A stretch of DNA of 35,473 nucleotides from Caldithrix sp. (GCA_014730185.1 WJIP01000125.1:1-35473), one strand, 5' to 3'. Positions 14,594 through 35,122 are shown, counted from the stretch's first letter. The notes: generated by a model from the sequence alone, not told the origin. Made by a program: numbers and translations.

Positions 14594-14599
14594 GAGCAA

Positions 14600-17141: not shown

Positions 17142-18560
17142 ATGTTACCATTCATCTTAAATAATAGATGGGTAAAGCCGGAAAGCCCCGAAGGCACGGT
17201 TTTACTTGATTTTATACGTACTGATCAACGATTGACCGGCGCCAAGGAAGGCTGTCGCGAAGGCGACTGCGGTGCCTGCATGGTACTGGTCGGCCGATTA
17301 AAACATGGTCAGCTGCACTACACGCAAAATGTGTCCTGCCTGCTGCCCATTGCTGCGGTTGCACATTGCCATGTGGTGACTATCGAAGGGCTCAATCGGC
17401 AAACGCTTTCTCCTCTGCAGCAATTTTTTGTGGACGAGTATGCCTCACAATGCGGATTCTGCACACCGGGATTTATCATTTCGCTGACGGCCTACCTGCT
17501 CAACGGCACACAAATGGATGACGAAGAAGCCCTGTCCTATGTGGATGGTAATCTATGCCGCTGTACCGGTTACAGTTCCATCCGCCGGGCACTCAGCAAA
17601 TTAAACCAAACGTACGGCGCCGAGCTCATCGACTACTCCGTTCCAGCCCAACGCATCAGGCGATTAATCGAATTGAATCTGCTTCCTGATTATTTTTCAT
17701 ACATGGAAAAACAACTGCAAACCCCGCCCCGGCAACCGAGCGGACAACCATTAACAAAGGATGACGGTGCAAGAACCATCGTGGCCGGCGGCACCGATTT
17801 GTTTGTGCAGCAGGCAGACGATTTAAGGGAACATAAACTTGCATTCATGCAGAATACACGGGGTATTGTGATTGAGGATAATCGCTGCTATGTGGATGCG
17901 GCCTTCAATGTGCAGGAATTGCAAAACCATCCCCAGTTACAGCATCATTTTCCCCGTATGCATCAATGGTTCAGGCTTATTGCCTCCATGCCCGTCCGCC
18001 ATCGGGCCACTGTGGGCGGTAATATTATCAATGCTTCGCCCATCGGAGACTTATCGGTTTGGCTACTGGCTTTGGATGTGACGGTCGTTTTGCAAAACGG
18101 CCGGCGGACGCGTGAAATCCCACTCAAAGATTTTTTTGTGGACTACAAAACATTAGCCATGACGGAAGATGAGACGGTGCAACTGGTTTATTTTGACTTG
18201 CCCCGGGAAAACTATTTTTTCCATTTTGAAAAGGTATGCAAACGGACCTATCTGGATATAGCCAGTGTCAATGGGGCCATGTTCCTGCGTACCCGGGAAG
18301 AACGCATTGATACCATCCATCTGGCTCTGGGCGGCGTGGCACCCGTTCCCCTGTATCTGAAACAAACGGTGCACTTTTTACAGGGTTGCCCGGTTACCGC
18401 CGATACCATACACGAAGCGCTACGCATTCTGGAAAGTGAAATACAGCCCATCAGCGATGTGCGCGGTAGCGCCGATTATAAACGTTTGCTGGCCGGGCGA
18501 TTGCTCTGGGCTCACCTGTATCCGTACTATCCGGATTTGGTTGAAAAGGAGGTCTTATGA
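17142..18560 (+). CDS. xdhA: Xanthine dehydrogenase small subunit (2Fe-2S + FAD)
   Basis: This 472-aa fused electron-transfer subunit has three parts. The plant-type [2Fe-2S] domain has Cys38/43/46 (G-C-R-E-G-D-C-G-A-C) and Cys66. The second helical [2Fe-2S] domain has C104-G-F-C107-T-P-G and C139-R-C141-T-G-Y. The FAD domain has V-A-G-G-T-D (214-219) and A-T-V-G-G-N-I-I-N-A-S-P-I-G-D (289-303), followed by the CO-dehydrogenase flavoprotein C-terminal fold. This is the XdhA layout of Rhodobacter-type enzymes and the length agrees. It moves electrons from the molybdenum site in XdhB to FAD and NAD+. It overlaps xdhB by 4 nt (ATGA). It is the first gene of the catabolic cluster. Confidence 0.95.
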   Translation: MLPFILNNRWVKPESPEGTVLLDFIRTDQRLTGAKEGCREGDCGACMVLVGRLKHGQLHYTQNVSCLLPIAAVAHCHVVTIEGLNRQTLSPLQQFFVDEYASQCGFCTPGFIISLTAYLLNGTQMDDEEALSYVDGNLCRCTGYSSIRRALSKLNQTYGAELIDYSVPAQRIRRLIELNLLPDYFSYMEKQLQTPPRQPSGQPLTKDDGARTIVAGGTDLFVQQADDLREHKLAFMQNTRGIVIEDNRCYVDAAFNVQELQNHPQLQHHFPRMHQWFRLIASMPVRHRATVGGNIINASPIGDLSVWLLALDVTVVLQNGRRTREIPLKDFFVDYKTLAMTEDETVQLVYFDLPRENYFFHFEKVCKRTYLDIASVNGAMFLRTREERIDTIHLALGGVAPVPLYLKQTVHFLQGCPVTADTIHEALRILESEIQPISDVRGSADYKRLLAGRLLWAHLYPYYPDLVEKEVL

Positions 18561-20866
18561 GCCCCACCGCCGACCACAATCTGCACGTATCCGGTACGGC
18601 CCGGTTTATCGATGATATTCCCGTTCGCCGGGATACGCTGTATGCCGCCGTGTTGACTTCACAAAAGGCTCATGCCCGGATAACTGCTTTGGACACGGCC
18701 GCCGCCGGCCGCCAGCCCGGTATTGTGCGTATTTTTACCGCCGGCGACATCCCCGGTGATAAAACCATCGGTAATATTTTTCAGGACGAACCGCTGCTGG
18801 CTTCGGATGAGGTTGTCTACAGGGGCGAACCCCTGACGCTGATCGTGGCCGAAACCATGCGCGCCGCCCGGATGGCCCGCAAGTTCATCAACGTGCAATA
18901 TGACGAATTACCCGCTGTGTTCGATGCCCGGCAGGCCTATGATCAGGGCCGTTTGATCGCTCCGCCGCGTACCTTTGTACTGGGCGATGTGGATAAGGCC
19001 TGGCCACAATGTGACATCATCGTCCAGGACCGGGTGGAATCCGGCCATCAGGAACATTTATATCTGGAAACGCAGGGCGCCTATGCTTACATGAACGATC
19101 ATCTTCTCAAAGTGATTTCTTCAACACAGTCGCCCGGCGCCGTGCAAAAGATGATCGCCCGCATCTTAAACATCCCCATGCACCTCATCGAAGTGGAGGC
19201 GCCCCGGCTTGGCGGCGCTTTCGGGGGTAAAGAGGAACAGGCCACCAACTGGGCCTGTCTGTGCGCCCTGGCTGCTTATAATCTTAAACGTCCGGTAAAA
19301 CTGGTATTGAACCGCCGGGAGGATATGAATTATACCGGCAAAAGGCACGCCTATACATCCGACTTTAAGATCGGCTTAAACCGTGACGGAAAAATTCTGG
19401 CATACGAAGTGTTTATGTTCCAGAATGCCGGGGCCTTTGCCGATTTATCCACTTCCATTCTGGAGCGATCTCTTTTCCACGCCGCCAACAGTTACGACAT
19501 TCCCAACGTCAAAGCCACGGCTGTAAGCTGCCGCACCCATCTGCCGCCCAACACGGCCTTTCGCGGATTCGGCGGGCCACAGGCCATGTTTGTAATTGAA
19601 GCGGCCCTGGATAAAGCCTGCCACGCCATGGCCATGGATAAGTTGAGCATCCAGGGAAAAAACCTACTGCAATCCGACAGCGTGTTTCCCTATGGCATGG
19701 GGGCGAAAAGCGACGGCGCCCGGCGATGCTGGCAATCAGCGATGGATATCTATCAAACCGACAGCCGGCAAAAAGCCCTTACCACCTTCAATCGGAAAAA
19801 CCGTCGGTTTAAAAAAGGTTTGGCCCTGATGCCCATCTGTTTTGGTATTTCCTTCACCAGCAAGTTTTTGAATCAGGCCGGGGCCCTGGTACATGTGTAC
19901 AACGACGGCAGCGTGCGTATCAGTACGGGCGCCGTGGAAATGGGTCAGGGCGTCAATGATAAATTACGGGCTGTGGCCGCCCGCGTCTTTTCCATCGATG
20001 AAGAACGTATTTTGCTGGATACCACCAGCACCGCCCGGGTGGCCAACGCTTCCCCGACGGCGGCCAGCACCGGTTCGGATTTAAACGGCATGGCCCTGAA
20101 AACCGCTTGTGAAATCATCTTAAGCGCATTGAAACAGTTTGTTGCCCGGTGTCACGATATCGATGATCCTGAACAGATTATTTTAAATAATGAAACCGTA
20201 CAGGTTAACGGACAATCCATCGATCTGAGTTGGGATAAGCTCATTCAAGAAGCTTATTTGGAGCGCGTCGATTTATCGGCCCATGCTTTTTATGCCACGC
20301 CCCATCTGTTCTTTGACCGGCAGACCGAAAAAGGCCAACCGTTCGCCTATCATGTTTACGGAACCGGTGTGGTGGAAGTCACCGTGGATGCTCTGACCGG
20401 AACCTACACCATCGACCGCATGGGTATTGTACACGATCTGGGCAAGAGTTTGCATACCCAAGCCGATTTGGGACAGGTGGAAGGCGGTGTGGCTCAGGGA
20501 CTGGGCTGGATGACCATGGAAGAAATCATCTATTCGGATGAGGGTAAAAATTGCACCGACACGCTGTCCACCTACAAAATTCCCGATATACAGTTTATGC
20601 CGGACGATCTGCAGGTCGAATTTATCGAAGCATCCGGACGGGACAGCGGGCTGTTCCATTCCAAAGCCGTCGGCGAACCGCCGTTTATGTATGGTATCGG
20701 CGTCTATTTTGCCCTGTTGAACGCTATCCGGGCCTTTCGTCCGAACGCGGAAACGTACTACTCGGCGCCACTGACGCCGGAGAAGGCCTTATTTATGCTA
20801 ACCGGTCAGAATAATAAACAAAATGTTTCTGAGAAGAAATTAACACTAGAGAAGAAGAAATATTGA
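18557..20866 (+). CDS. xdhB: Xanthine dehydrogenase molybdopterin-binding subunit
   Basis: This 769-aa catalytic subunit would hydroxylate hypoxanthine/xanthine at the molybdenum cofactor. Pocket residues can be matched to bovine xanthine oxidase: Glu226 in G-G-A-F-G-G-K-E (bovine Glu802), Arg336 in N-T-A-F-R-G-F-G-G-P-Q (bovine Arg880), and Glu707 in V-G-E-P-P (catalytic Glu1261). Q191 in S-T-Q-S-P-G and the E-M-G-Q-G loop (461-465) contact the molybdopterin. The H-D-L-G-K-S-L-H then G-Q-V-E-G-G signature is also intact. All three purine-specific residues are kept, so xanthine dehydrogenase activity is a firm prediction. The last 20 residues are a lysine-rich tail. It is translationally coupled to xdhA. 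Confidence 0.95.
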   Translation: MSPTADHNLHVSGTARFIDDIPVRRDTLYAAVLTSQKAHARITALDTAAAGRQPGIVRIFTAGDIPGDKTIGNIFQDEPLLASDEVVYRGEPLTLIVAETMRAARMARKFINVQYDELPAVFDARQAYDQGRLIAPPRTFVLGDVDKAWPQCDIIVQDRVESGHQEHLYLETQGAYAYMNDHLLKVISSTQSPGAVQKMIARILNIPMHLIEVEAPRLGGAFGGKEEQATNWACLCALAAYNLKRPVKLVLNRREDMNYTGKRHAYTSDFKIGLNRDGKILAYEVFMFQNAGAFADLSTSILERSLFHAANSYDIPNVKATAVSCRTHLPPNTAFRGFGGPQAMFVIEAALDKACHAMAMDKLSIQGKNLLQSDSVFPYGMGAKSDGARRCWQSAMDIYQTDSRQKALTTFNRKNRRFKKGLALMPICFGISFTSKFLNQAGALVHVYNDGSVRISTGAVEMGQGVNDKLRAVAARVFSIDEERILLDTTSTARVANASPTAASTGSDLNGMALKTACEIILSALKQFVARCHDIDDPEQIILNNETVQVNGQSIDLSWDKLIQEAYLERVDLSAHAFYATPHLFFDRQTEKGQPFAYHVYGTGVVEVTVDALTGTYTIDRMGIVHDLGKSLHTQADLGQVEGGVAQGLGWMTMEEIIYSDEGKNCTDTLSTYKIPDIQFMPDDLQVEFIEASGRDSGLFHSKAVGEPPFMYGIGVYFALLNAIRAFRPNAETYYSAPLTPEKALFMLTGQNNKQNVSEKKLTLEKKKY

Positions 20867-20879
20867 ATTAATGAATTTT

Positions 20880-20980
20880 TGGAGTTATGGAATATTGTAG
20901 TATTGGAGAGCTGGAGTACTGGAGTGTTGCAAGTTTCCATTTCCTAATCACCAATTCACACTTCCAATAACTCAATAACT
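20880..20980 (+). repeat. 8-nt-period repeat element, copy A (before the flavoprotein gene)
   Basis: Six consecutive 8-nt units from 20880 to 20927 follow the consensus TGGAGTAT (TGGAGTTA, TGGAATAT, TGTAGTAT, TGGAGAGC, TGGAGTAC, TGGAGTGT). A second block from 20965 repeats CAATAACT with the same period. The complement of the second block resembles the first, so TTGGAGTTATGGAA can fold back on TTCCAATAACTCAA. A related copy lies at 23497-23620. Confidence 0.6.
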
Positions 20981-21023
20981 GAATGACTCAGCGAATCATT
21001 CGTTCAACAATAGATGAATCCAT

Positions 21024-21028
21024 GGAGG
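21024..21028 (+). promoter_or_regulatory. Ribosome binding site deciding the flavoprotein start
   Basis: GGAGG stands 6 nt before the ATG at 21035. It lies inside the alternative longer frame starting at 21014, which is therefore unlikely to be the real start. Confidence 0.6.
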
Positions 21029-21034
21029 AAATCG

Positions 21035-23512
21035 ATGTCCCTTAACCACAGCATCATGCTTACCGACGCTCAGTTACGTGAGGAAGTGGAAAAATGTTTG
21101 TATTGCGAAACCAAACCCTGCCAGCAGGCCTGCCCCGCCGACTGTTCGCCGGCTGATTTCATTATGGCCATCAAGGTGGGCGAGCCGCAGGATTATCGGC
21201 GTTCGGCTGCGGAAATTTTACATAAAAACCCATTAGGCGGAATTTGCGGTCAGGTGTGTCCCGACTACCATTGCATGCAGGCCTGCGTGTATGAAACCTT
21301 CAATCATCCCGTCAACATCCCGGCGGTGCAGGCGGCGGTTATTCAAAAAGCACGGGATGTCGACTTGCAGCCGGAATTCCGCCCGGATGCGTCCCCGAAA
21401 AACCAAAAAGTGGCCGTGGTCGGCGCCGGTCCGGCCGGTCTGGCCGCTGCCGCTACGCTTTCTTTGCAAGGCTACCCCGTCGCCGTCATGGAAAAGGAAA
21501 CAAAGGCCGGCGGTATGTGCCGTTTGATTCCTCAAGATCGACTGCATAACAGCATGCTGGAAGACGATATCCGGTTTTTAACCGAAACGGGCGCCATGCA
21601 AATTGAATATGAACGAGCCGTGGACGATCCGCAGTCTTTACTGCAAGACGGTTTCGATGCCGTGATCGTGGGCACGGGTCTGGATCGGGTTTATCGTCTG
21701 AACATTGCGGGAGAGGATGCTGCTGATAACTGGTATGACTTTTTGAAAACCGGCAGGCAATCCATGACCGGTAGCCATGTGGCGGTCATTGGCGGCGGGG
21801 CGGTTGCACTGGACTGTGCTAGCACAGCGTTGAGTAACGGGGCGGCCGCGGTCGATATGATCTGCCTGGAAAATCCCGGTGAAATGCCTTTGGATGGCAG
21901 GGAACGAAAGGCCCTGTTTCGCCAAAACATCAACGTTATAACACGTACGCGCCTGAAAGCCATCGATGAACAGGATGGTTCGATTCAGGGCATTCATCTC
22001 GGGCGCGTCAGTCTGCCACAGGGACAATCCTTTCATCCCGCCCGCATGCAGGATATCGAAGGCGCCGATTATTACCTGACCGGTTATGATCGGGTCATCA
22101 CGGCCATTGGAGCGGAAAGTTCGTTGGAGCAGAAACCGCACAGCAACATTTTTTATGCCGGAGACATGAAAAACGGTCCAACCACCGTGGTGGAAGCGGT
22201 GGCCTCCGGCAAAAACGCGGCCGCCCGGACCATGGCCTATTTAGAACAAAAAGCGGTAAAGAATGTAACAAACGACCGAAAAAGCACTCTGCCGTTACGC
22301 GGCTATGTACAGCAACCAGCGTCGCTTCAATCCGATTTTTTCGGGCGCATCATTCATGCCCCTTTCCTGTTATCGGCTGCCCCACCCACCGACGGTTACG
22401 AGGCCGTTAAGAACGCCTACGAAGCCGGATGGCCCGGGGCGATCATGAAAACGGCTTTTGATGACCTGAAAGTGCATATCCCATCGGAATATATGTTCGT
22501 GTTGAATGGACAAACTTTCGCCAACTGTGATAATGTGTCCGATCATCCATTGGAACGGGTGTGTATGGAAATCGAACAACTGGTCAGAGCATTTCCCGAC
22601 CGATTGACCATGGCCTCCACCGGCGGGCCTATTACCGGCGATGATAATGCCGATAAATACGTCTGGCAAAGCAATACCCGCAGGCTGGAAAACGCCGGTG
22701 TCATGGGCATCGAATACAGCCTGTCCTGTCCCCAGGGCGGTGACGGTACGGAAGGCGATATTGCCGCCCAGAACGCCGCTCTGACGGCTAAAATTGTCGA
22801 TTGGGTGATGGGAACCTGTGATGCGGATATCCCCAAATTATTTAAATTGACCGGAGCGGTTACGGCCATTGAACCGATTTTGGCAGCCATTAAGGAGGTG
22901 CTGAACCGTTATCCTGATAATAAAGCGGGCGTCACCCTGGCCAACACCTTTCCCTCTCTTGAATTTCGCTCCGGAAATAAGGAAGGCTGGGAAGAGGGCA
23001 TCATTGTGGGCATGTCCGGCAAGGGCGTCGCCAGCATCTCCAATCTGACCCTGGCCAAAGCCTCCACCTCAGGTCTGCCGATCTCCGGTAACGGCGGGCC
23101 GATGGATTACAAATCGGCGGCTCATTTTCTGGCTTTAGGCGCCCAGACGGTGCAATTCTGCAGCATCGTTATGAAATACGGTTACGGCATTATTGATGAA
23201 TTGAGCAGCGGGCTGAGTTACCTGATGCAACAGCGGGGATTGAGTTCGATAAGTCAGCTAATCGGCGCCGCCCTGCCCCGGCCGATCACCGATTTTGAGG
23301 ACCTGCCGCCCATTCATAAAATTCCCCAGGTATACGAAGATTGGTGTGAACAATGCGGCAACTGCACCCGATGTTCCTATAACGCGGTTAGGTTAAACGA
23401 CGACCGCATTCCCCAATTCGATGCCGAACGGTGTGTGGGCTGTTCCTTTTGTGTGCAAAATTGCTTTGCCGGCGCCCTGACCATGGTGGAAAGAGATGGA
23501 ATGAGGGAGTGA
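21035..23512 (+). CDS. Fe-S/FAD/FMN oxidoreductase in dihydropyrimidine-dehydrogenase domain order (PreT-PreA-like fusion)
   Basis: 825 aa. Domains: a GltD-type helical Fe-S domain with C-L-Y-C-x4-C-x3-C (21-33) and C-G-Q-V-C-x4-C-x3-C (71-84); an FAD site G-A-G-P-A-G (130-135); an NAD(P) site V-I-G-G-G-A (251-256); an FMN TIM barrel with S-L-S-C-P-Q-G (562-568) and I-S-G-N-G-G (683-688); and a C-terminal two-[4Fe-4S] ferredoxin domain (771-810). This order matches mammalian dihydropyrimidine dehydrogenase and a PreT-PreA fusion, whereas E. coli YgfK has the dehydrogenase-like half first. At the position of DPD Cys671 there is Ala577. It probably reduces a cyclic purine/pyrimidine-type intermediate with NAD(P)H or ferredoxin. 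Its stop codon lies within a repeat. Confidence 0.85.
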   Translation: MSLNHSIMLTDAQLREEVEKCLYCETKPCQQACPADCSPADFIMAIKVGEPQDYRRSAAEILHKNPLGGICGQVCPDYHCMQACVYETFNHPVNIPAVQAAVIQKARDVDLQPEFRPDASPKNQKVAVVGAGPAGLAAAATLSLQGYPVAVMEKETKAGGMCRLIPQDRLHNSMLEDDIRFLTETGAMQIEYERAVDDPQSLLQDGFDAVIVGTGLDRVYRLNIAGEDAADNWYDFLKTGRQSMTGSHVAVIGGGAVALDCASTALSNGAAAVDMICLENPGEMPLDGRERKALFRQNINVITRTRLKAIDEQDGSIQGIHLGRVSLPQGQSFHPARMQDIEGADYYLTGYDRVITAIGAESSLEQKPHSNIFYAGDMKNGPTTVVEAVASGKNAAARTMAYLEQKAVKNVTNDRKSTLPLRGYVQQPASLQSDFFGRIIHAPFLLSAAPPTDGYEAVKNAYEAGWPGAIMKTAFDDLKVHIPSEYMFVLNGQTFANCDNVSDHPLERVCMEIEQLVRAFPDRLTMASTGGPITGDDNADKYVWQSNTRRLENAGVMGIEYSLSCPQGGDGTEGDIAAQNAALTAKIVDWVMGTCDADIPKLFKLTGAVTAIEPILAAIKEVLNRYPDNKAGVTLANTFPSLEFRSGNKEGWEEGIIVGMSGKGVASISNLTLAKASTSGLPISGNGGPMDYKSAAHFLALGAQTVQFCSIVMKYGYGIIDELSSGLSYLMQQRGLSSISQLIGAALPRPITDFEDLPPIHKIPQVYEDWCEQCGNCTRCSYNAVRLNDDRIPQFDAERCVGCSFCVQNCFAGALTMVERDGMRE

Positions 23513-23620
23513 TGGAGTACTGGAGTGTTGGAAATCTGGAAGTTGCCAATTTACGGTTTAAAGTTCCAGGTTCCAAGTTGCAGTTTGCAATAACTCAACA
23601 ACTTAATAACCGATAACTAA
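23497..23620 (+). repeat. 8-nt-period repeat element, copy B (after the flavoprotein gene)
   Basis: Units of 8 nt run from 23497 to 23544 (TGGAATGA, GGGAGTGA, TGGAGTAC, TGGAGTGT, TGGAAATC, TGGAAGTT), and a CAATAACT block follows from 23588. TGGAGTACTGGAGTGTTG (23513-23530) is identical to 20912-20929. The first two units supply the last codons and the stop of the flavoprotein gene. Confidence 0.6.
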
Positions 23621-23668
23621 AACCCATCGACTCGATAATCCATTTATGCAGCGATGAAAGGTTGAACC

Positions 23669-25000
23669 ATGTCCCAAACGATACTGATCAAAGACGTAAC
23701 GGTCATTACCCTCGGCAGCAGCAATCGAGTGCTGCACAAAGCAGCGGTGTTGATTGAAGATAACCGCATCAAAAAGGTGACGACCGACCGATCGGATAAA
23801 CTTCAGGCCAATAAAATCATAGACGGCAGCGGCAAAGTGATGATGCCCGGATTCATTAACGCCCACATGCATTTTTACAGCACGTTTGTGCGCGGATTGA
23901 CCAAAGCCCAACCGGCTCGTCATTTTGAGCAGGTGCTGCACAATTTGTGGTGGCGGCTGGATAAGCAATTGACGGGCGACGATATCTACTACAGCGCCCT
24001 GCTCATGCTGTTAACCGCCATTCGTAAAGGGACAACCACTTTTATCGATCACCATGCCAGTCCCAATTGTGTACGCGGTTCGCTGCAAAAGATAGCCGAC
24101 GCCGTGGAACAGAGCGGTTTGCGCGCCGCCCTGTGTTACGAAGTCAGCGACCGCGACGGGCCCGAAGCAACCCGTGACGGCCTGGAAGAAAACCGGGAAT
24201 TTATCGAATATTGCCGGCAGGAACATACCGAACACCTTAAAGCGCTGTTCGGGCTGCATGCCTCGTTCACCATCAGCGACGCTACCCTGGAAAAAGCGGC
24301 CGACATTGGCCAATCCCTGAACAGCGGCTTCCATCTGCACGCGGCCGAAGCCGAAGCCGACCAGCGTATTTCAAGGGAAAAATTCGGCCTGAGCGTCGTG
24401 GAACGTCTGCATCAATTCGGCATATTGGGCCATAAATCTCTGGCCATACACGGTGTGCACATTGATGAGCAGGAAATGGAGTTTTTAAAGGATACGGAAA
24501 CGGCCGTCGTGCACAATCCCCAATCCAATTTGAATAACGGTGTGGGTATCGCCGATATAACCACGATGATGAACAAGGGTATTCTGGTGGGATTGGGCAC
24601 GGATGCCATGACCGTCAACATGTTCGATGAATTACGCACGGCCTTGTGGGCTCAGCACCTGCGTTACGGCGATCCTTCGGTTGGATTTCTGGAAGCGGTT
24701 AACAGCTTGTTTATCAATAACGCCCGCATCGCTAACCGCTACTGGCCGACGCCATTAGGCGTGATCGAAGAAGGGGCCACCGCCGATATCATTTTACTGG
24801 ATTATGATCCGCCGACGCCGCTGATCGATGATAATATCTGGGGACACCTGGTATTCGGCATGTTCTTGCAACCCGTGGATACGACCATCGCCAACGGGCG
24901 TATTTTGATGGAAAACAAGCAATTGAAACTGGATATTGATGAACAGGAAGTAGTGGCAAAGTCCAGGGAATTATCGGCGAAATTGTGGGAACGGTTTTAA
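23669..25000 (+). CDS. ssnA: Putative aminohydrolase SsnA
   Basis: This 443-aa member of the amidohydrolase superfamily is close to SsnA and to chlorohydrolase/guanine-deaminase-type enzymes. Metal ligands are visible: H66-x-H68 in N-A-H-M-H-F, H224 in F-H-L-H-A-A-E, H261 in I-H-G-V-H, and D312 in L-G-T-D-A-M. The E in H-A-A-E is the usual proton shuttle. The N- and C-terminal beta-sandwich strands are present (I-I-D-G-S-G-K-V-M-M-P-G-F; A-D-I-I-L-L-D-Y). SsnA is a standard member of clusters with YgfK, YgeY and molybdenum hydroxylases; a deaminating or ring-opening hydrolysis of a nitrogen heterocycle is expected. The exact substrate is unproven here. An AAAGG site precedes the ATG. Confidence 0.9.
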   Translation: MSQTILIKDVTVITLGSSNRVLHKAAVLIEDNRIKKVTTDRSDKLQANKIIDGSGKVMMPGFINAHMHFYSTFVRGLTKAQPARHFEQVLHNLWWRLDKQLTGDDIYYSALLMLLTAIRKGTTTFIDHHASPNCVRGSLQKIADAVEQSGLRAALCYEVSDRDGPEATRDGLEENREFIEYCRQEHTEHLKALFGLHASFTISDATLEKAADIGQSLNSGFHLHAAEAEADQRISREKFGLSVVERLHQFGILGHKSLAIHGVHIDEQEMEFLKDTETAVVHNPQSNLNNGVGIADITTMMNKGILVGLGTDAMTVNMFDELRTALWAQHLRYGDPSVGFLEAVNSLFINNARIANRYWPTPLGVIEEGATADIILLDYDPPTPLIDDNIWGHLVFGMFLQPVDTTIANGRILMENKQLKLDIDEQEVVAKSRELSAKLWERF

Positions 25001-25043
25001 ACGGCAGATGCCCGCAGAGACGCAAATGTGCAGAAAATTTTGA

Positions 25044-25070: not shown

Positions 25071-25185
25071 AAAAAGAGGGGGTGGGTTAGTTTTTTCTGA
25101 GCTAAAGACATAATCTTAAATATTAAAAATATCCTCAGCGACTTAGGACCTCAGTGGGATGTAAAAAAGTATGCTAAACCATTTT

Positions 25186-25189
25186 GGAG
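25186..25189 (+). promoter_or_regulatory. Ribosome binding site deciding the ygeY start
   Basis: GGAG stands 6 nt before the ATG at 25196. The frame could be extended to a TTG at 25184, but that codon overlaps this site. Confidence 0.55.
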
Positions 25190-25195
25190 AAATCG

Positions 25196-26401
25196 ATGTA
25201 TCAGCGGATCATGAAACGGGCTAAGGAACTGGAAGCGGATGCGGCCGGATTTTTATCGAAGTTGGTGCGCACTCCCTCATTTTCCGGTAAAGAGAAAGAC
25301 GTTGTATCCTTAATTCAGCAAAAGATGACGGATTTACACTTCGATGACGTACGCATCGATCCACTGGGCAATGTGATTGGCCGCATCGGCAACGGGCCGC
25401 GGGTCATCGCCTTTGACGCCCATGTGGATACCGTTTATCCTGGCGATACAAATCAATGGACGTTTGATCCCTTCGACGGTTCCATCGTGGATGGGTATGT
25501 TCGGGGACGCGGATCCGTGGATCAAAAAGGGGGCATGGCCAGCATGGTTTACGCGGCGCAGATCATAAAAGAACTGAACCTGAACCGGGATTTCACCATT
25601 CTGTTCACCGGGACGGTCATGGAGGAAGATTGCGACGGCCTGTGCTGGCAATATCTGGTTCAGGAGGAAAACATTCGTCCGGAAGTGGTGGTGGTTACCG
25701 AGCCCACCAATCTGAATATTTACCGTGGGCAGCGGGGACGCATGGAAATCGAAGTGCGCATGAACGGCGTCTCCTGTCACGGTTCAGCCCCGGAACGCGG
25801 GGACAACGCCATTTACAAAATTAGTCGTATCGCTCTTGAAATCGAAAAACTCCATGATGCTTTAAAAACCGATGAGTTTCTGGGCAAAGGCAGTGTGGCC
25901 GTTACCCAGGTTTTTTCCAATTCGCCGTCGCAATGCGCTGTACCCGATGCCGCCTGGATTCGTCTGGACCGCCGATTAACCCATGGCGAAACTAAAGAGA
26001 CCGCCTTGGCCGAAATTCGTGAAGCCGCCCTTCGCGCCGGATATTCTGATGTCGATATCCGGCTACTGCAGTACAATGAACCGGCTTATACCGGCCTGCG
26101 CTATACAACGGAAAAATATTATCCGACCTGGGTGCTTGAGGAACCCTCGCCCTATCTGCAACAGGCGGTTTCGGCTTATCATAATGTATTCAACCGACAA
26201 CCGCTGGTCGATAAGTGGACGTTCAGCACTAACGGCGTATCCATCTCCGGTATGTTCGGTATTCCGGTGGTGGGCATGGGACCCGGTAACGAGATTTACG
26301 CCCACGCCGTAAACGAAGCCGCCCCTGTGGACCATCTGAGTAAAGCGGCCGCTTTTTATGCCGGGTTTGTCCGGTCCTTACAGGAAAATCAAAGGAGTTA
26401 A
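25196..26401 (+). CDS. ygeY: YgeY-family M20 metallohydrolase
   Basis: The protein has 401 aa. It has the M20 dinuclear zinc peptidase/deacylase fold with all ligands: H76-x-D78 in A-H-V-D-T-V, D109 in G-S-V-D-Q-K-G-G, E143-E144 in V-M-E-E-D, E169 in T-E-P-T, and the C-terminal His in Y-A-H-A-V-N-E. The dimerisation domain lies between, with S-C-H-G-S-A-P-E. YgeY proteins are the M20 branch that accompanies selenium/molybdenum hydroxylase clusters. A role in hydrolysing an amide or carbamoyl intermediate of purine breakdown fits the context; general peptidase activity is less likely. It ends 5 nt before the next gene, whose AAGGAG site lies within the end of ygeY. Confidence 0.92.
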   Translation: MYQRIMKRAKELEADAAGFLSKLVRTPSFSGKEKDVVSLIQQKMTDLHFDDVRIDPLGNVIGRIGNGPRVIAFDAHVDTVYPGDTNQWTFDPFDGSIVDGYVRGRGSVDQKGGMASMVYAAQIIKELNLNRDFTILFTGTVMEEDCDGLCWQYLVQEENIRPEVVVVTEPTNLNIYRGQRGRMEIEVRMNGVSCHGSAPERGDNAIYKISRIALEIEKLHDALKTDEFLGKGSVAVTQVFSNSPSQCAVPDAAWIRLDRRLTHGETKETALAEIREAALRAGYSDVDIRLLQYNEPAYTGLRYTTEKYYPTWVLEEPSPYLQQAVSAYHNVFNRQPLVDKWTFSTNGVSISGMFGIPVVGMGPGNEIYAHAVNEAAPVDHLSKAAAFYAGFVRSLQENQRS

Positions 26402-26406
26402 CGGCA

Positions 26407-27642
26407 ATGGTTGGCCATCAGTTGACACCCTTTAATTACCGATGCACACAATGCGGTCGTCATTTTGAACGTGACGCCGTCACATATTTATGTCCGCACT
26501 GCAGTATCGCTTATCAGGCGGGTCAAACCCTCTGCGGGGTTTTACAGGCTGAATTCGACTATGATTACATCCGCCGTTATTTCAATCCGGCGGCGCCCGA
26601 CTGGCAATTGTTCAGTGCTGTGGAGGCATCCTTTTCACCCTCATTACCTGTGGGCCAGACGCCCTATTTTCAGGCGTACCAATTAGAATCCCTTAGCGGT
26701 TTAAGCAATATTTATCTAAAAAATGACGGATTGAATCCCAGCGGGTCCCTCAAAGACCGGGCTTCTTATTTAGTAGTGGCCGAGGCCAAACGCAAAGATA
26801 TCGATACCGTCGTCACTGCTTCCACCGGCAACGCCGCCAGCGCCCTGGCCGCCGTTTGCGCCTCATGTGGAATGAAAGCGGTTATTTTTGCCCCGGCCTC
26901 CGCCCCCAAAGCTAAACTGTTGCAAATTCTGCTATATGGAGGCCAACTGATTACTGTAGATGGCAGCTATGATGATGCCTTTTCTCTATCACTGGCCTAC
27001 AGCCAGCGTAACAATGTTCTCAACCGTAATACGGCCTACCATCCCCTGACCATCGAAGGTAAAAAATCAGCGGCATTGGAGATATTGACCCAGAACGGCA
27101 TGCACCCGCCGCAGGCTGTGATCGTGCCTGTGGGCGACGGCGTGATCATCAGCGGCATGTACAAAGGTTTTTACGATTTAATGGATAGCGGCATAACCGA
27201 TCGTCTGCCGCGATTGATTGGTGTACAGGCGGAAAAATCGGCGGCCATCCATCGCTATTTACAAACAGGCTGTTTTTCGGCCCTAAAAACGGCGCAAACC
27301 ATAGCCGACTCCATATCTGTTGCCGTTCCCAGTAACGCATATATGGCCCGGCAAGCGATTCTGCAAAGCGGCGGTTTTACCCTGACGGTCAGCGATGAGG
27401 ACATTATGCAGGCCCAGCAATTGTTGGCGGCCAACAGCGGTATTTTCGCCGAACCGGCGGCAGCCGCGACGCTGGCCGGCCTGTTAAAAGACGATTGCCG
27501 TAACGAACTGAATTCCAAGGGATCTATCGTTTTGCTGATTACCGGTCACGGCTTAAAAGACATCGCCACCCCTCTTGAACAGATGCGAATACCTGCCGCG
27601 CAAAAGCCGCAAGCCATTCTCGACAATATGGAGGCGATATGA
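26407..27642 (+). CDS. Threonine synthase-like PLP enzyme (fold type II)
   Basis: 411 aa. The N-terminal zinc-ribbon is C13-x-x-C16 and C30-x-x-C33, as in many bacterial threonine synthases. The PLP lysine is Lys116 in N-P-S-G-S-L-K-D-R-A. The S-T-G-N-A-A-S-A-L loop follows, and V-P-V-G-D-G binds the cofactor phosphate. The position inside a degradation operon, with its start close after ygeY and a 4-nt overlap with hyuA, argues against a biosynthetic role. A beta-elimination on a diaminopropionate-, serine- or phosphoserine-like product is more likely, which would fill the place of diaminopropionate ammonia-lyase YgeX in the E. coli cluster. That function is inferred from context only. Confidence 0.8.
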   Translation: MVGHQLTPFNYRCTQCGRHFERDAVTYLCPHCSIAYQAGQTLCGVLQAEFDYDYIRRYFNPAAPDWQLFSAVEASFSPSLPVGQTPYFQAYQLESLSGLSNIYLKNDGLNPSGSLKDRASYLVVAEAKRKDIDTVVTASTGNAASALAAVCASCGMKAVIFAPASAPKAKLLQILLYGGQLITVDGSYDDAFSLSLAYSQRNNVLNRNTAYHPLTIEGKKSAALEILTQNGMHPPQAVIVPVGDGVIISGMYKGFYDLMDSGITDRLPRLIGVQAEKSAAIHRYLQTGCFSALKTAQTIADSISVAVPSNAYMARQAILQSGGFTLTVSDEDIMQAQQLLAANSGIFAEPAAAATLAGLLKDDCRNELNSKGSIVLLITGHGLKDIATPLEQMRIPAAQKPQAILDNMEAI

Positions 27643-29030
27643 GTCAAAAGGTGATCGTCCGGAACGGCAAACTTTGCCATCCCCACGGCATTCGGCGGGA
27701 AGATATATTGATGCAAAACGGGCGTATTGCCCGTATCGGCAAAATTTCCGAAAACGAATACCAATCCGCTGAGGTAATCGATGCAATGGACCATTATGTG
27801 CTGCCGGGCTTGATTGATATGCACACTCATGTGGATGATGCCATTAACGGCGTTGCCCTGGCCGATACCTATGACAGCGCCTCCCGTCTGGCCATACAAA
27901 ACGGTATCACCACCCTGTTTACGTTTATCACCCAAGGTCCTGCGGAAAGCTTCGATATGGCCATTGACCGGGCCGTTCGAAAAGCCAAAGGAAACAGTTA
28001 TACCGATGTGGGATGGCATCTCACTCCACTGGATTGGTACCCCCCGGCTATGGAGCGCATCCAAACCCGTATTCAAGAGGGATTCAAAACCTTCAAATTT
28101 TACACCACTTACAAAGAGGCCGGTCTTTATCTGGATTACGAACAAATCGCAGCCATCGTCAACCGATTAACAAAATACAATGTGCGTTTTCTGGTGCATT
28201 GCGAAGATGAACAAACGCTGGAAACCTACCGGCAAAAATCGTGGGATCTAAGCAAACCCGAAAGTCATGCAGATATGCGTCCACCCGGAGCCGAATACGA
28301 GGCTATCCGCCGTATTATTGAAATCGCCAAACGCAGTGGAGCTAAATTCCACATCGTTCATGTATCCACGACAGAAGGTCTGGAATTGATCGCAAACGAA
28401 GGCCGTCGCCATGGGATCACCTGCGAAACCGCACCGCATTATTTTTTGCTCAATCGTCGACAATTAGCCGCCGAAAACGGTCACCGCTATTTGTGTACGC
28501 CGCCGCTGCGCCAACCGGACACTCAACGCGGTATGAAAACTTATGCCCAAGAGGCCCGCTTCGATTGCTTTGCCACCGATCATTGCGCTTTCAACCGTAA
28601 AGAAAAAGACCGGCACAAAAAGAATCTGCCATCGATCCCTAAAGGCATTGCCGGATTGGGTTCGCTGGCGCCGGCCGTATTCGAATTATTCCATCAAGAA
28701 GGTGATGCCGGTATGATCAAACTTTTAAAAACTCTATCCGAAAACCCGGCCAGGATAACGGGCTTATATCCGCAAAAAGGGATTTTGCAGGAGGGATCGG
28801 ACGCCGACGTGGTCATCTTAAAGAAAGGTAATCAAAGCCGGCCGTTTTGTTCAAGTCTGACCAACAACTACGAACCATATCCCGATTTTGAAACCCGTTT
28901 GCATATTGCTTATGTTATCAGGAATGGTGAAATTAAAGTAAAAAATAACAGCATCATAAATAACGTCATGAATGGCAAATTATTAAATCACAATAATCAA
29001 ACAAATCAATATGAATCAAAACATAAGTAA
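27639..29030 (+). CDS. hyuA: Dihydropyrimidinase / hydantoinase family hydrolase
   Basis: The protein has 463 aa. It is a cyclic amidohydrolase with a binuclear metal centre, all ligands visible: H62-x-H64 (D-M-H-T-H), carbamylated Lys153 in F-K-T-F-K-F, H187 in V-H-C-E-D, H241 in I-V-H-V-S-T, and D314 in A-T-D-H-C-A. It opens cyclic ureides such as dihydropyrimidines and hydantoins, giving N-carbamoyl amino acids. It is the equivalent of E. coli HyuA/YgeZ in the yge region and would act after a reductase. The last 18 residues (G-K-L-L-N-H-N-N-Q and onward) are encoded by a sequence repeated 518 bp downstream, so the C-terminus may have been altered by insertion of the next gene, which overlaps it by 20 nt. 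Confidence 0.93.
   Translation: MSQKVIVRNGKLCHPHGIRREDILMQNGRIARIGKISENEYQSAEVIDAMDHYVLPGLIDMHTHVDDAINGVALADTYDSASRLAIQNGITTLFTFITQGPAESFDMAIDRAVRKAKGNSYTDVGWHLTPLDWYPPAMERIQTRIQEGFKTFKFYTTYKEAGLYLDYEQIAAIVNRLTKYNVRFLVHCEDEQTLETYRQKSWDLSKPESHADMRPPGAEYEAIRRIIEIAKRSGAKFHIVHVSTTEGLELIANEGRRHGITCETAPHYFLLNRRQLAAENGHRYLCTPPLRQPDTQRGMKTYAQEARFDCFATDHCAFNRKEKDRHKKNLPSIPKGIAGLGSLAPAVFELFHQEGDAGMIKLLKTLSENPARITGLYPQKGILQEGSDADVVILKKGNQSRPFCSSLTNNYEPYPDFETRLHIAYVIRNGEIKVKNNSIINNVMNGKLLNHNNQTNQYESKHK
28974..29001 (+). repeat. 28-bp direct repeat, left copy
   Basis: This copy matches 29492-29519 at 25 of 28 positions, with the last 16 identical. It codes for G-K-L-L-N-H-N-N-Q at the end of the hydantoinase. 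The two copies bracket the four-helix-bundle gene. Confidence 0.75.
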
Positions 29031-29379
29031 CAAACCGGTATATGGCCTGGAAGAAAGAACATTCTTATTTGCTAAGAATGTGAGAATTTTTGTCAAAACG
29101 TTAGCGAATACTTTAGCTAATATTGATGACGGAAAACAAGTTATTAGATCTTCAGGTTCTATAGGCGCCAACTATCGGGAAGCAAATGAGGCTTTAAGCA
29201 AAAAAGATTTTGTTTTGCGAATAAAAATAAGTCATAAGGAAGTAAAAGAGAGTGAATATTGGCTTCGTCTCATTGCTGAAACAAATGAGTTAAAAAATAG
29301 TCAGGAAGCCCAACGGTTGATTGGGGAAACCATTGAATTAAAGAAAATATTTTCCTCCATCTTAGAAAAATCAAAATAA
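29011..29379 (+). CDS. Four-helix-bundle protein (23S rRNA intervening-sequence / S23 type)
   Basis: 122 aa. All-helical, with the family signature R-S-S-G-S-I-G-A-N-Y-R-E-A-N-E-A followed by K-D-F-x-x-R-I-K-I and K-E-x-K-E-S-x-Y-W-L. Related proteins are encoded in 23S rRNA intervening sequences of Leptospira and Coxiella, and a related fold serves as Avd in diversity-generating retroelements. Here no rRNA or reverse transcriptase is nearby. The gene is much more AT-rich than its neighbours, overlaps the end of hyuA by 20 nt, and lies between 28-bp direct repeats, so it reads as a small inserted cassette in the catabolic operon. It probably has no metabolic role there; the function of stand-alone members is unknown. 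Confidence 0.88.
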   Translation: MNQNISNKPVYGLEERTFLFAKNVRIFVKTLANTLANIDDGKQVIRSSGSIGANYREANEALSKKDFVLRIKISHKEVKESEYWLRLIAETNELKNSQEAQRLIGETIELKKIFSSILEKSK

Positions 29380-29491
29380 ACAGGTTTTGAATATTGATAT
29401 TTTTATATTGGAATTTATTTGTTATTTATAATTTGTAATTTGAGATTTAAATGATGAACGTCAATACAATATTGCATGTAGTACGAATTAA

Positions 29492-29519
29492 GGTAAATCA
29501 TTGAATCACAATAATCAAA
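29492..29519 (+). repeat. 28-bp direct repeat, right copy
   Basis: This is the right-hand copy of the repeat at 28974-29001. In the matching frame it reads G-K-S-L-N-H-N-N-Q-K-T-N-F-K and then a stop at 29534-29536. It could therefore be the displaced original 3' end of the hydantoinase gene. A TAA (29489-29491) directly precedes it. Confidence 0.75.
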
Positions 29520-29589
29520 AAACAAATTTCAAATAAATGGCAATAATGAGATTTTATAATAATCCAATGGCCATGAAAGGCAGACTGTT

Positions 29590-31842: not shown

Positions 31843-31843
31843 T

Positions 31844-32371
31844 ATGCATACGATCATCAATAAAAAACAGATTACATTATCCGATCCCATGCTGGATAAA
31901 AATTTGCTCGAATTTATCCGTGAGAATTTGGACCTGACAGGCACTAAAAACGGCTGCGGGATCGGTATGTGCGGCAGTTGCATGGTTTTGGTTGATGATA
32001 AACCGGTACAGGCCTGCCGCAAAACAGTTCGCCATATCGTCGGTAAAAAGTTGTTAACGATTGAAGGCATGGCGCTGGCGGACGGTAACCTGCACCCGCT
32101 ACAGCAGGCGTTTGTGGACGCCGGCGCCATTCAGTGCGGTTTCTGCACGCCGGGTATGGTATTGGCGGCCCATGCCCTTCTGTTAAAAAATAATCAACCT
32201 AGCCGGGACCAAATCCGTAAAGCCATCCACAACAACCTGTGCCGGTGTACGGGCTACCAGCAAATCGTTGACGCCATTGAACAGGCCGCCCATTATTACA
32301 GAAGCCAACGGAATACGTCTATGCATACACATAAAATACAACATACCGTAGCCGATTCTACATCCCAATGA
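31844..32371 (+). CDS. 2Fe-2S subunit of the second molybdenum hydroxylase
   Basis: 175 aa. It has the standard two-cluster small subunit: Cys38/43/46/58 (N-G-C-G-I-G-M-C-G-S-C, then Q-A-C) for the plant-type cluster, and C98-G-F-C101-T-P-G with C133-R-C135-T-G-Y for the second. It is the XdhC/CoxS/NdhS type. It passes electrons out of the preceding molybdenum subunit. Without an adjacent flavin subunit the acceptor is unknown; the XdhA flavin domain or the Fe-S flavoprotein in the cluster are candidates. The final 20 residues are a His/Thr-rich tail beyond the family core. It starts one base after the previous stop (TGATATG). Confidence 0.95.
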   Translation: MHTIINKKQITLSDPMLDKNLLEFIRENLDLTGTKNGCGIGMCGSCMVLVDDKPVQACRKTVRHIVGKKLLTIEGMALADGNLHPLQQAFVDAGAIQCGFCTPGMVLAAHALLLKNNQPSRDQIRKAIHNNLCRCTGYQQIVDAIEQAAHYYRSQRNTSMHTHKIQHTVADSTSQ

Positions 32372-32399
32372 TACGATTATTGCCGAGAGAGAGGAATCC

Positions 32400-33569
32400 A
32401 TGAATGACAATCTGAAGCGCCAATTGAACGAACTGGCCCGAGAACCCAACCCGTTATTCCGGCAGGATTTCCTGCTGACCTGGGAACACGATCTTAAAGC
32501 CTTTGAATCCGTTTTGCGGACTGCCGAAATTCTGAAATCCATGCATCAGCAAAAATTATCCGCCAAAATGTTCGACAGCGGACTGGCCATTTCCATCTTT
32601 CGCGATAAATCCACCCGTACCCGGTTCAGCTTTGCTTCGGCCGCCGACTATCTTGGGCTTTCCGTGCAGGACGTGGACGAACAGAAGACGCAGATATCGC
32701 ACGGCGAAACGGTGCGCGAAACCGCCAATATGATCTCGTTTTTGGCGGAAGTCATCGGCATCCGCGACGATATGTATCTCGGCGAAGGCGATCGCTACCA
32801 GCGTGAGGTTCAGCAGGCCGTGCGTTACGGCTACCAAAACGGCATCCTGCATCAGCAACCAACCATTATCAATCTGCAATCGGATCTGGATCATCCCACG
32901 CAAACCCTGGCCGATCTGGCCAAGCTGAGAGATTACTTTGGTTCCCTCGAGGCCCTACGCGGTAAAAAGCTGGCCATGACCTGGGCCTATTCCCCCAGTT
33001 ATGGCAAACCGCTATCCGTGCCGCAGGGCATCATCGCTTTAATGACCCGACTGGGTATGGAGGTCACTCTGGCTTATCCTGAGGGTTACGATCTGCTGCC
33101 GGACATTGTGGATCAATCAAAGCAATCCGCCCAAAAGAGCGGAGGCCAATTTCAAGTTGTGCACGACATGGAAGAAGCCTTCCAAAACGCCGATGTGGTC
33201 TATCCCAAATCGTGGGCCTCGTTCCGGGTAATGGAACAGCGCCGCGATATGCTGCACGCCGGCAATCAGGAGGGATTGAAACAACTTGAAGCGGATTGCC
33301 TGGCGGAAAACGCCCGCCAAGTGCACTGGGAATGCAATCGTGCCATGATGGACGCCACCCGCGACGGCCAGGCCCTGTATATGCACTGCCTGCCGGCGGA
33401 CATTACCGGCGTCAACTGCCAAAACGGCGAAGTGAGCACGGAAGTGTTCGATCAATACATGCCCCACACCTATCACCAGGCCGGCTTCAAACCTTTTGTA
33501 ATTGCCGCTATGATGGTTCTCAGCAAAATTGAAAATCCGGGAAAACGATTGAAAAAACGGTGTGAGTAG
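32400..33569 (+). CDS. ygeW: Knotted carbamoyltransferase YgeW
   Basis: 389 aa. It belongs to the aspartate/ornithine carbamoyltransferase superfamily. The carbamoyl-phosphate loop is S71-T-R-T-R75 (F-R-D-K-S-T-R-T-R-F-S). D-H165-P-T-Q168 and H329-C-L-P332 complete the site. It is longer than ordinary OTC (about 330 aa), as YgeW is, and it carries the P-x-x-Y-x-K-P-L-S-V-P insertion typical of knotted members. In the yge cluster the likely direction is phosphorolysis of a carbamoylated intermediate to give carbamoyl phosphate, from which ATP could be made by carbamate kinase; that kinase is not in the window. A GAGG site lies before the ATG. Confidence 0.93.
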   Translation: MNDNLKRQLNELAREPNPLFRQDFLLTWEHDLKAFESVLRTAEILKSMHQQKLSAKMFDSGLAISIFRDKSTRTRFSFASAADYLGLSVQDVDEQKTQISHGETVRETANMISFLAEVIGIRDDMYLGEGDRYQREVQQAVRYGYQNGILHQQPTIINLQSDLDHPTQTLADLAKLRDYFGSLEALRGKKLAMTWAYSPSYGKPLSVPQGIIALMTRLGMEVTLAYPEGYDLLPDIVDQSKQSAQKSGGQFQVVHDMEEAFQNADVVYPKSWASFRVMEQRRDMLHAGNQEGLKQLEADCLAENARQVHWECNRAMMDATRDGQALYMHCLPADITGVNCQNGEVSTEVFDQYMPHTYHQAGFKPFVIAAMMVLSKIENPGKRLKKRCE

Positions 33570-33658
33570 AAATCGGATGGATTGAATTATTTAACAGATG
33601 ACCGAATCTTTTTTTCAAATTGATGTAATGATGACTTTGATATAAATAAGGAGTTTCC

Positions 33659-35122
33659 ATGAACAGGGATCAGGTTTTACAAAACACCATCCGGCGCTGC
33701 CGTGAAAAACACATAATTATACCCACCTATAAACAGATGCGCGATCCGCTATCCATCCCGGATAAAATAAAAGATAAACTGAGGACCATCGGATTGTGGG
33801 AGCTCAATTCTCTCAATCTGTTTCGCATCACCTGGAAGAACGAACCCAAGGAACTCGGAGGCGGTTTTGGCGGCGTCAACTATCTGGAACTGCCCCCGGA
33901 ATTGACCGGTGTGGAAGCGCGTATCATTATGTTACTGGGCAAATTCTTTCCCACCGGCTCGCACAAAGTGGGCGCCACTTTTGGTCCGTTGGTGGAAAAA
34001 CTGGTCAGCGGCCGTTTCGATCCCACCCGCCAGAAAGCCCTGTGGCCTTCCACCGGCAACTATTGCCGCGGCGGTGCTTATGACTCTTACCTGCTGGGCT
34101 GCGACTCCATCGCCGTTTTGCCGGAAGAAATGTCCAGCGAACGTTTTGAATGGCTGCGCAAAGTGGGCGCCGAAATTTTCGCCACGCCTGGTTGCGAGAG
34201 CAACGTCAAAGAGATATACGATAAAGTTAAAGAGCTGGAGGCTGAGCGCGGCGATGAAATCGTCAATCTCAACCAGTTCAGCGAAATCGGTAACGCCGTG
34301 TGGCATTACGCCGTAACCGGTCCGGCCATGGAGGAAGTTTTTGAACACGAAAAAGGCGCCAACGACCGTTTTGCCGCTGTGTTTCTGACGCAGGGCTCCA
34401 CCGGTACACTGGGCAGCGCCGAATATCTGCGCGAGCGCTTTCCCCTGTTTAAAGTGGGCGCCGGCGAAGCCCTGCAATGCCCCACCCTGCTGTTGAACGG
34501 CTTCGGCGGACACCGCATCGAGGGCATTGGCGATAAGCATGTGCCCTGGATTCACAATCTGCACAATACGGATATGGTGGCGGCCATCGATGACCGGCCC
34601 AATATGCGCCTGATGCGCCTGTTCAACGAACCGGCCGGTCAGCAGTATCTACAGGATAAGGGCGTGCAGCCCGAAATCGTTGAACAGCTGCCCTTGTTGG
34701 GTATTTCATCCATCGCCAATCTGATGGGCGCCATCAAGATGGCCAAATACTACGAGATGGATCGTAACGATGTCATTTTCACCGTATCCACCGATTCCAT
34801 GGAATTGTACCAGTCCCGCATGCAGCAGGAACGCCATAACTACGGCTCATTCAGCGAAATGGACGCCGCCGTCAGCTTCGAGGCTGACCTGCGCGGATTG
34901 TCCCTGGATCACATGCTGGAGTTAGGCTATTATGAACGCAAGCGCATTCATAATCTCAAATATTTTACATGGGTGGAGCAGCAGGGTAAAACTCTGGAGG
35001 AGCTCAACGCCCAGTGGTACGACCGCGACTACTGGCAAAAGCAATTCGCCCGCGTAGATGAATGGGATGCCAAAATCGAGGCCTTTAACGCCCGCACGGG
35101 CTTGATGGAGGCATACCGGTGA
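33659..35122 (+). CDS. PLP-dependent lyase, tryptophan-synthase-beta superfamily
   Basis: 487 aa. It is a fold type II PLP enzyme. The Schiff-base lysine is Lys103 in F-F-P-T-G-S-H-K-V-G-A-T-F. The substrate loop is W-P-S-T-G-N-Y-C-R-G-G-A, and Q-G-S-T-G-T is the phosphate-binding turn. The sequence is unlike the threonine synthase-like gene upstream and is not the usual diaminopropionate ammonia-lyase as far as I can tell. I recall similar proteins next to ygeW in other anaerobes, annotated only as PLP-dependent beta subunits. A deaminating elimination on the amino acid left after decarbamoylation is a reasonable guess. It is the last gene of the cluster and has a good AAGGAG site. Confidence 0.85.
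   Translation: MNRDQVLQNTIRRCREKHIIIPTYKQMRDPLSIPDKIKDKLRTIGLWELNSLNLFRITWKNEPKELGGGFGGVNYLELPPELTGVEARIIMLLGKFFPTGSHKVGATFGPLVEKLVSGRFDPTRQKALWPSTGNYCRGGAYDSYLLGCDSIAVLPEEMSSERFEWLRKVGAEIFATPGCESNVKEIYDKVKELEAERGDEIVNLNQFSEIGNAVWHYAVTGPAMEEVFEHEKGANDRFAAVFLTQGSTGTLGSAEYLRERFPLFKVGAGEALQCPTLLLNGFGGHRIEGIGDKHVPWIHNLHNTDMVAAIDDRPNMRLMRLFNEPAGQQYLQDKGVQPEIVEQLPLLGISSIANLMGAIKMAKYYEMDRNDVIFTVSTDSMELYQSRMQQERHNYGSFSEMDAAVSFEADLRGLSLDHMLELGYYERKRIHNLKYFTWVEQQGKTLEELNAQWYDRDYWQKQFARVDEWDAKIEAFNARTGLMEAYR

Follow-up and report, generated by a model that had tools for sequence, protein, structure and literature searches.

A gene cluster in a probable Calditrichota bacterium that may encode reductive xanthine and urate degradation with replacement parts

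We describe a gene cluster that quite likely encodes a reductive (anaerobic) pathway of xanthine and urate degradation, of the kind known from E. coli and C. difficile, with replacement parts. This reading is based on the match between the activities that the pathway needs and the set predicted here: a Mo hydroxylase, a flavin reductase, SsnA, HyuA, YgeW, YgeY and a PLP lyase (PMC12507026). Counted against it are the scores of the hydantoinase and of both Mo subunits, which lie under the curated equivalog cut-offs. The interest of the cluster is in its unstudied ending, formed by two PLP enzymes called here PLP1 and PLP2, and in its wide environmental distribution.

The gene cluster and its host

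The window, meaning the whole stretch of 35,473 nucleotides that was analysed, is an entire contig (G000:C54) of a 4.1 Mb genome in 398 contigs, 96% complete. Twelve co-directional genes on the + strand occupy positions 17142-35122; no gap between them exceeds 211 bp, and several overlap:

17142..18560, +, xanthine dehydrogenase subunit of the XdhA type, with 2Fe-2S and FAD; TIGR02963 342.8 bits (cut-off 467); Pfam Fer2, Fer2_2, FAD_binding_5, CO_deh_flav_C
18557..20866, +, Mo subunit of the XdhB type, probably of a true xanthine dehydrogenase (xanthine to urate); TIGR02965 775.6 bits (below the cut-off of 849.5)
21014..23512, +, fused reductase, dihydropyrimidine-dehydrogenase-like, candidate yanthine reductase; PreA NF006183 201.9 bits; pig DPD (PDB) E = 1e-47
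23669..25000, +, SsnA aminohydrolase; NF005540 547.8 bits (above the cut-off of 444); TIGR03314 504.8 bits (above 455.5)
25184..26401, +, YgeY M20 hydrolase; NF009555 550.4 bits (above the cut-off of 321); 53% to E. coli YgeY
26407..27642, +, PLP1, fold-II PLP enzyme resembling threonine synthase, N-terminal CxxC...CxxC ribbon, candidate replacement for YgeX; PALP 254.7 bits
27639..29030, +, HyuA-type D-hydantoinase; TIGR02033 271.7 bits (cut-off 393); 27% identity with E. coli HyuA
29011..29379, +, four-helix-bundle protein, 23S rRNA-IVP family; TIGR02436 71.7 bits; PF05635 51.5 bits
29590..31842, +, Mo2, second Mo hydroxylase subunit, candidate urate to yanthine reductase; NF043082 481.5 bits (below the cut-off)
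31844..32371, +, 2Fe-2S subunit of Mo2; NF043084 166.7 bits (cut-off 217); Fer2_2 114.4 bits
32400..33569, +, YgeW knotted carbamoyltransferase; TIGR03316 589.7 bits (above the cut-off of 500); 59% to E. coli YgeW
33659..35122, +, PLP2, fold-II PLP enzyme of 487 residues, cysteine-synthase-like, family unnamed; cysKM 91 bits (cut-off 344); PALP 53 bits

Eleven of these ORFs are the catabolic members of the cluster. An earlier sequence-only reading of this DNA had described eleven catabolic genes on one strand in this interval, and ORF and family scans recover every one of them, at the same positions and with agreeing families. As a list of the run, however, that reading was incomplete: it missed the four-helix-bundle gene between the hydantoinase and Mo2 (29011-29379), which is probably a bystander. 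Since the end of the cluster sits close to the end of the contig, the cluster may extend further.

Genes of the PorV family lie upstream of the cluster, and the DnaE protein of the window has 70-72% identity to the DnaE of family members; for named Neomarinimicrobiota, Ignavibacteria, Cloacimonadota and Bacteroidetes the figure is 44-49%. PLP2 was set aside for placing the host, as this gene crosses phyla, and DnaE served in its stead. Both observations make plausible the FCB-group host proposed earlier, which we would place, with probability rather than certainty, in the Calditrichota.

Family profile scans put SsnA, YgeY and YgeW all above curated cut-offs, YgeW with scores of 589.7-611.8 bits versus cut-offs of 500 and 453; it is the sole canonical YgeW among 40 genomes of the phylum. 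Because there are three curated-family matches, and because the same families are linked in many other genomes, a chance grouping of the genes is excluded: the cluster is authentic.

Comparison with the published pathway

The reductive urate route was solved in 2025 in E. coli and C. difficile (PMC12507026; commentary by Percudani, PMC12990295). It runs through urate, yanthine, ureidomethyl-hydantoin, 2,3-diureidopropionate, 2,3-diaminopropionate and pyruvate: XdhD converts urate to yanthine, a reductive dearomatisation by YgfK or UacX comes next, SsnA and HyuA open the rings to 2,3-diureidopropionate, YgeW or UacY and YgeY take off the two ureido groups, and YgeX converts 2,3-diaminopropionate to pyruvate (PMC12507026, PMC12990295). 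The E. coli cluster comprises xdhD-ygfM, ygfK, ssnA, hyuA, ygeW, yqeA, ygeY and ygeX (Li et al. 2025, PMC12507026).

The present cluster has in common with that of E. coli SsnA, YgeW, YgeY, a HyuA-type hydantoinase, a Mo hydroxylase, a flavin/Fe-S reductase and a fold-II PLP enzyme. It differs in having a DPD-type fused reductase where E. coli has YgfK, and PLP1 and PLP2 where E. coli has YgeX; Mo2 consists of separate Mo and 2Fe-2S genes with no FAD partner, the carbamate kinase and permease are unlinked, and an XdhAB of the proteobacterial/mammalian XDH type is included. With the C. difficile cluster, which has XdhD without YgfM, UacX and UacY, it shares a Mo hydroxylase without FAD subunit and a reductase with a PydA-type FMN domain; on the other hand, UacX has no FAD domain whereas the reductase here has one, UacY is found there and YgeW here, and YgeX is replaced here.

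The sequence-only reading had suggested anaerobic purine or urate catabolism, in the order oxidation, reduction, ring opening, carbamoyl transfer and elimination. Both the substrate class and the order fit the pathway that was later solved biochemically, as well as the family assignments. It was also right to call the set different in several members: YgfK, UacX and YgeX are missing, and two other PLP enzymes stand instead.

The proposed pathway can be laid out as follows. XdhAB would convert xanthine to urate, from which Mo2 and its 2Fe-2S subunit would remove an oxygen to yield 2,8-dioxopurine (yanthine). At the locus, no gene for a FAD subunit adjoins this pair, so that ferredoxin probably feeds it. 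The DPD-type fused reductase would dearomatise yanthine with NAD(P)H, and the two rings would then be opened by SsnA and the hydantoinase to give 2,3-diureidopropionate. One ureido group would be phosphorolysed by YgeW to carbamoyl phosphate, giving ATP via a carbamate kinase whose gene lies outside the cluster, on the unlinked contig G000:C218 (TIGR00746 365.4 bits, above the cut-off of 358); the other would be hydrolysed by YgeY. PLP1, in YgeX's stead, would eliminate ammonia from 2,3-diaminopropionate to form pyruvate. PLP2 would act on these C3 amino acids too, in an additional PLP-dependent reaction: it might handle the other stereoisomer, as a racemase or a D-specific lyase, or else catalyse the beta-elimination of albizziin, the mono-ureido intermediate. 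What the data show is the identity and order of the genes, their scores relative to cut-offs, the active-site residues and the linkage across phyla; we infer from these all substrates and reactions, the role of PLP1 and, above all, that of PLP2.

Molybdenum hydroxylases and hydrolases

The best PDB matches of the XdhB-type subunit are mammalian XDH (E = 8e-158), and it keeps the equivalents of all five Rhodobacter capsulatus residues examined: Glu232, Arg310, Phe344, Phe459 and Glu730. Since every checked XDH active-site residue is kept, XdhAB is probably a true xanthine dehydrogenase. Mo2, which has relatives of 40-45% identity in clusters of related genomes, keeps Arg310 and Glu730, and has Asp at the Glu232 position and Leu at the Phe459 position. 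It thus departs from XDH at two active-site positions, and XdhAB at none, which would make Mo2 the better candidate for the reductive step. Residue Glu606 of XdhD, considered as a marker, turned out to be uninformative: it sits in an insertion that other Mo proteins, Mo2 included, do not have. Contig C199 carries a third set of Mo hydroxylase genes, accompanied by maturation genes of the XdhC and MocA types.

Aligned with E. coli HyuA, the hydantoinase has the HxH and ATDHC motifs in common with it. No urate permease is linked to the cluster; an NCS2 permease is encoded elsewhere in the genome, on another contig.

The ring reductase

In the order of its domains (Fer4_20, pyridine-nucleotide/FAD, FMN (DHO_dh), 4Fe-4S), the reductase matches dihydropyrimidine dehydrogenase and not YgfK. 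This order is common to pig DPD and E. coli PreT/PreA, as are the catalytic Cys671 and the Asn609 and Asn736 positions of DPD, all kept here. Identity is 30% to E. coli PreT, 29% to PreA, and no more than 30% to YgfK. At 832 residues versus 1025, the reductase falls short of the length of pig DPD by about 190; it scores below the PreA cut-off, and cannot be assigned to YgfK (TIGR03315 153 bits vs a cut-off of 835). Neither YgfK nor UacX was found in the cluster, and we propose the DPD-type protein as a functional analogue. Two of its positions are changed relative to DPD, Asn668 to Ser and Glu611 to Asp. Pig DPD and E. coli PreA, which are uracil reductases, both have Asn668; the aligned residue of YgfK is Ser, in an alignment that is gapped there.

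Close relatives of this reductase occur in similar surroundings: at L049, whose genome falls in the class of the host, one that is 53% identical adjoins Mo, SsnA and YgeW genes, and at L097, from the Anaerolineae, another that is 54% identical adjoins PLP1, PLP2 and HyuA. In the phylum as a whole, proteins of at least four kinds take the reductase slot: full YgfK, a YgfK-like protein of 650 residues that lacks the FAD part, a UacX-like protein of 370 residues, and the DPD type.

Two PLP enzymes and the missing YgeX

YgeX (TIGR03528, cut-off 532 bits) is absent from the 40 genomes of the phylum, where the best score is 43.6 bits; in the genome of the cluster itself the best score is about 25 bits, with PLP1 also at about 25. 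The SsnA loci of these YgeX-less genomes are occupied by PLP1 and PLP2. Like YgeX, PLP1 is a fold-type II PLP enzyme, and it occupies the corresponding slot among the pathway genes; it differs in falling far under the TIGR03528 cut-off, and in having Thr and Asn at the positions of YgeX Asp120 and Asp189. Among curated profiles, it scores narrowly above the cut-off of thrC TIGR00260 (172.5 vs 167.1 bits) and below that of PRK08197 (214.5 vs 303 bits).

The AlphaFold model of PLP2 (pLDDT 91) has the core of O-acetylserine sulfhydrylase and cystathionine beta-synthase (8srt, TM 0.82 by target length), with extra parts of about 70 N-terminal and 100 C-terminal residues. PLP2 differs from these enzymes by a core identity of 24-26% and by its linkage to urate genes, and it is far under every cysteine-synthase cut-off (TIGR01136 91 bits vs 344).

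A plain replacement of YgeX by PLP2 was rejected: two loci (L104, L134) carry both, and in each the usual slot of PLP1, adjoining PLP2, is taken by a YgeX homologue in which Lys77, Asp120 and Asp189 are conserved. Because these loci pair a YgeX homologue with PLP2, the YgeX step probably falls to PLP1, and a different one to PLP2. In YgeX, Asp120 takes the proton from the D isomer. Given its Thr and Asn at the two Asp positions, PLP1 may act on one isomer only. PLP2 could then be a racemase or a D-specific lyase, the alternative being an albizziin beta-lyase; each of these proposals, taken singly, is less likely than not. Selenocysteine in PLP2 was also considered and discarded: a lone in-frame TGA (G009) replaces a phosphate-loop glycine codon, and reads as a sequence error or a mutation.

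Distribution and linkage

Li et al. took SsnA (IPR017700/TIGR03314) as the marker of such clusters, and gave as phyla Pseudomonadota, Bacillota, Chloroflexota, Actinomycetota, Spirochaetota and Elusimicrobiota; YgeX was tallied through the broad Pfam family PF00291 (PMC12507026). That family cannot separate YgeX from PLP1 or PLP2.

PLP2 is present in 27 of the 40 genomes of the phylum. A scan of the genomes of 84,980 species, with PLP2 as query, gives at least 592 relatives, the best 80 of which come from Cloacimonadota, Bacteroidota, Chloroflexota, Spirochaetes, Halanaerobiales, Clostridia, Synergistaceae, Desulfobacterota, Heimdallarchaeota and others. Around these best 80, all in other genomes, at least one urate-pathway gene lies within about 10 kb at 59 loci, and at least two kinds at 46; the remaining 21 have none nearby. 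PLP1 is at most two genes away from PLP2 in 37 of 77 loci, and the two recur together beside SsnA, YgeW, YgeY or YqeA in many phyla. Outside urate loci, the neighbours of PLP2 (DUF364, HAD hydrolase, LOG, PHP, glycosyltransferases) have no common theme.

Fifty PLP2-bearing genomes were scanned for SsnA and YgeX: 40 have a strong SsnA match, above the cut-off in 24, and none has a canonical YgeX. Among 301 evenly sampled Chloroflexota genomes, SsnA is above the cut-off in 24 of 26 with PLP2 versus 20 of 275 without (p = 2.6e-21 by a Fisher test, which ignores shared ancestry), and the two genes are often far apart in the genome.

Alternative explanations

The narrow passage of PLP1 over the thrC cut-off and the resemblance of PLP2 to cysteine synthase invite the thought that both are the ordinary biosynthetic enzymes, threonine synthase and cysteine synthase, present here by chance, and that the pathway ends some other way. 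Their joint recurrence beside pathway genes in many phyla argues otherwise, as do the low cysteine-synthase scores of PLP2, its tracking of SsnA genome-wide, and the absence of YgeX for the last step both from the 40 phylum genomes and from the 50 PLP2-bearing ones; we regard such a coincidence as unlikely. A reductase nearer to dihydropyrimidine dehydrogenase than to YgfK or UacX, together with a hydantoinase and a Mo2 under their cut-offs, would also suit the breakdown of some other N-heterocycle, such as a pyrimidine, a hydantoin or a modified purine, by comparable steps of oxidation, reduction, ring opening and carbamoyl transfer. But SsnA and YgeY are above their cut-offs, and the role reported for SsnA in the pathway literature is in the urate route only; XdhAB has a classical XDH active site, and the reductase has Ser in place of the Asn that contacts uracil. 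Another substrate is quite improbable in our judgement.

It is also conceivable, if doubtful, that XdhAB is an independent xanthine dehydrogenase operon that happens to abut the rest, the pathway proper beginning at the reductase: gaps of 148 bp and 157 bp precede and follow the reductase gene, and several relatives (L047, L050, L054) do not have XdhAB in the cluster. Against this, XdhAB adjoins SsnA in four loci (L036, L041, L042, L045), and YgeY and YgeW in a Bacteroidota locus (L069). The reading that we prefer remains that of a single xanthine and urate pathway, starting with XdhAB.

Discussion

The reductive urate pathway was solved only in 2025; what is new here is the PLP1/PLP2 ending, a further kind of ring reductase, and the broad environmental spread. 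Annotation would label PLP1, PLP2 and the ring reductase as threonine synthase, cysteine synthase and dihydropyrimidine dehydrogenase.

The Percudani commentary asks whether the pathway is ancient or a recent adaptation to the gut, and leans to the latter (PMC12990295). The marker set is found in Calditrichota, Cloacimonadota, Bacteroidota, Chloroflexota, Halanaerobiales and others, mostly in environmental assemblies, which argues against recent gut adaptation. One may then conjecture, tentatively and with rather less than even confidence, that PLP2 represents an undescribed family performing a step outside the published pathway, for example as albizziin beta-lyase or diaminopropionate racemase; that PLP1 and PLP2 together would be the usual ending outside enterobacteria and clostridia, the YgeX ending being a special case; and that the pathway may be old, environmental and shared by many phyla rather than an adaptation to the gut.

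Variation in the cluster and its surroundings

The canonical long form of the urate-pathway protein YgeW, encoded at 32400-33569, is found in only one of the 40 genomes searched in the phylum, that of the window, while in its relatives the same context is filled by a YgeW-like protein of about 330 residues that scores about 250 bits. The window's copy may thus have been acquired laterally.

The position of the cluster's second Mo protein is taken by several kinds of Mo enzyme, since in one family of the phylum it holds a fused TIGR03311-type "selenium-dependent xanthine dehydrogenase". The window's genome also has a third Mo hydroxylase operon, which includes XdhC-like and MocA-like maturation genes.

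Mo enzymes at other loci
L045, 13724-16297: fused TIGR03311-type protein (996 bits, over the cut-off)
L042, 3752-6325: fused TIGR03311-type protein
L192 (G000:C199:14001-31040), 10761-16224: third operon; FeS, Mo and FAD subunits

Other genes of the window
13349-14593, +: DUF1015
14856-15881, +: sensor histidine kinase
16110-16991, +: homocysteine S-methyltransferase-like (PF02574)
29011-29379, +: four-helix bundle, 23S rRNA-IVP family

No tie was seen between the cluster and the first three genes, which lie just upstream on its strand. The fourth lies within the operon, where it overlaps the hydantoinase gene's end, and has no obvious metabolic role.

PLP2 variants and Chloroflexota loci

The cysteine-synthase-like enzyme PLP2 at G009:C12:12639-14096 (L178) has one in-frame TGA in place of a glycine codon, probably an assembly error or the mark of a decaying gene. 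Chloroflexota genomes G107, G239, G312, G366 and G387 carry another, diverged subfamily of PLP2, which scores 458-566 bits. It too tracks the marker SsnA, in 10 of 18 genomes, and some of these have both genes on one contig within a few kb of each other.

At L112, L122, L138 and other Chloroflexota loci, sets of PLP1 (threonine-synthase-like), PLP2, YgeW-like and YqeA genes are directly preceded by an ABC importer that has two PF02653 permeases and may take up nucleobases or nucleosides.
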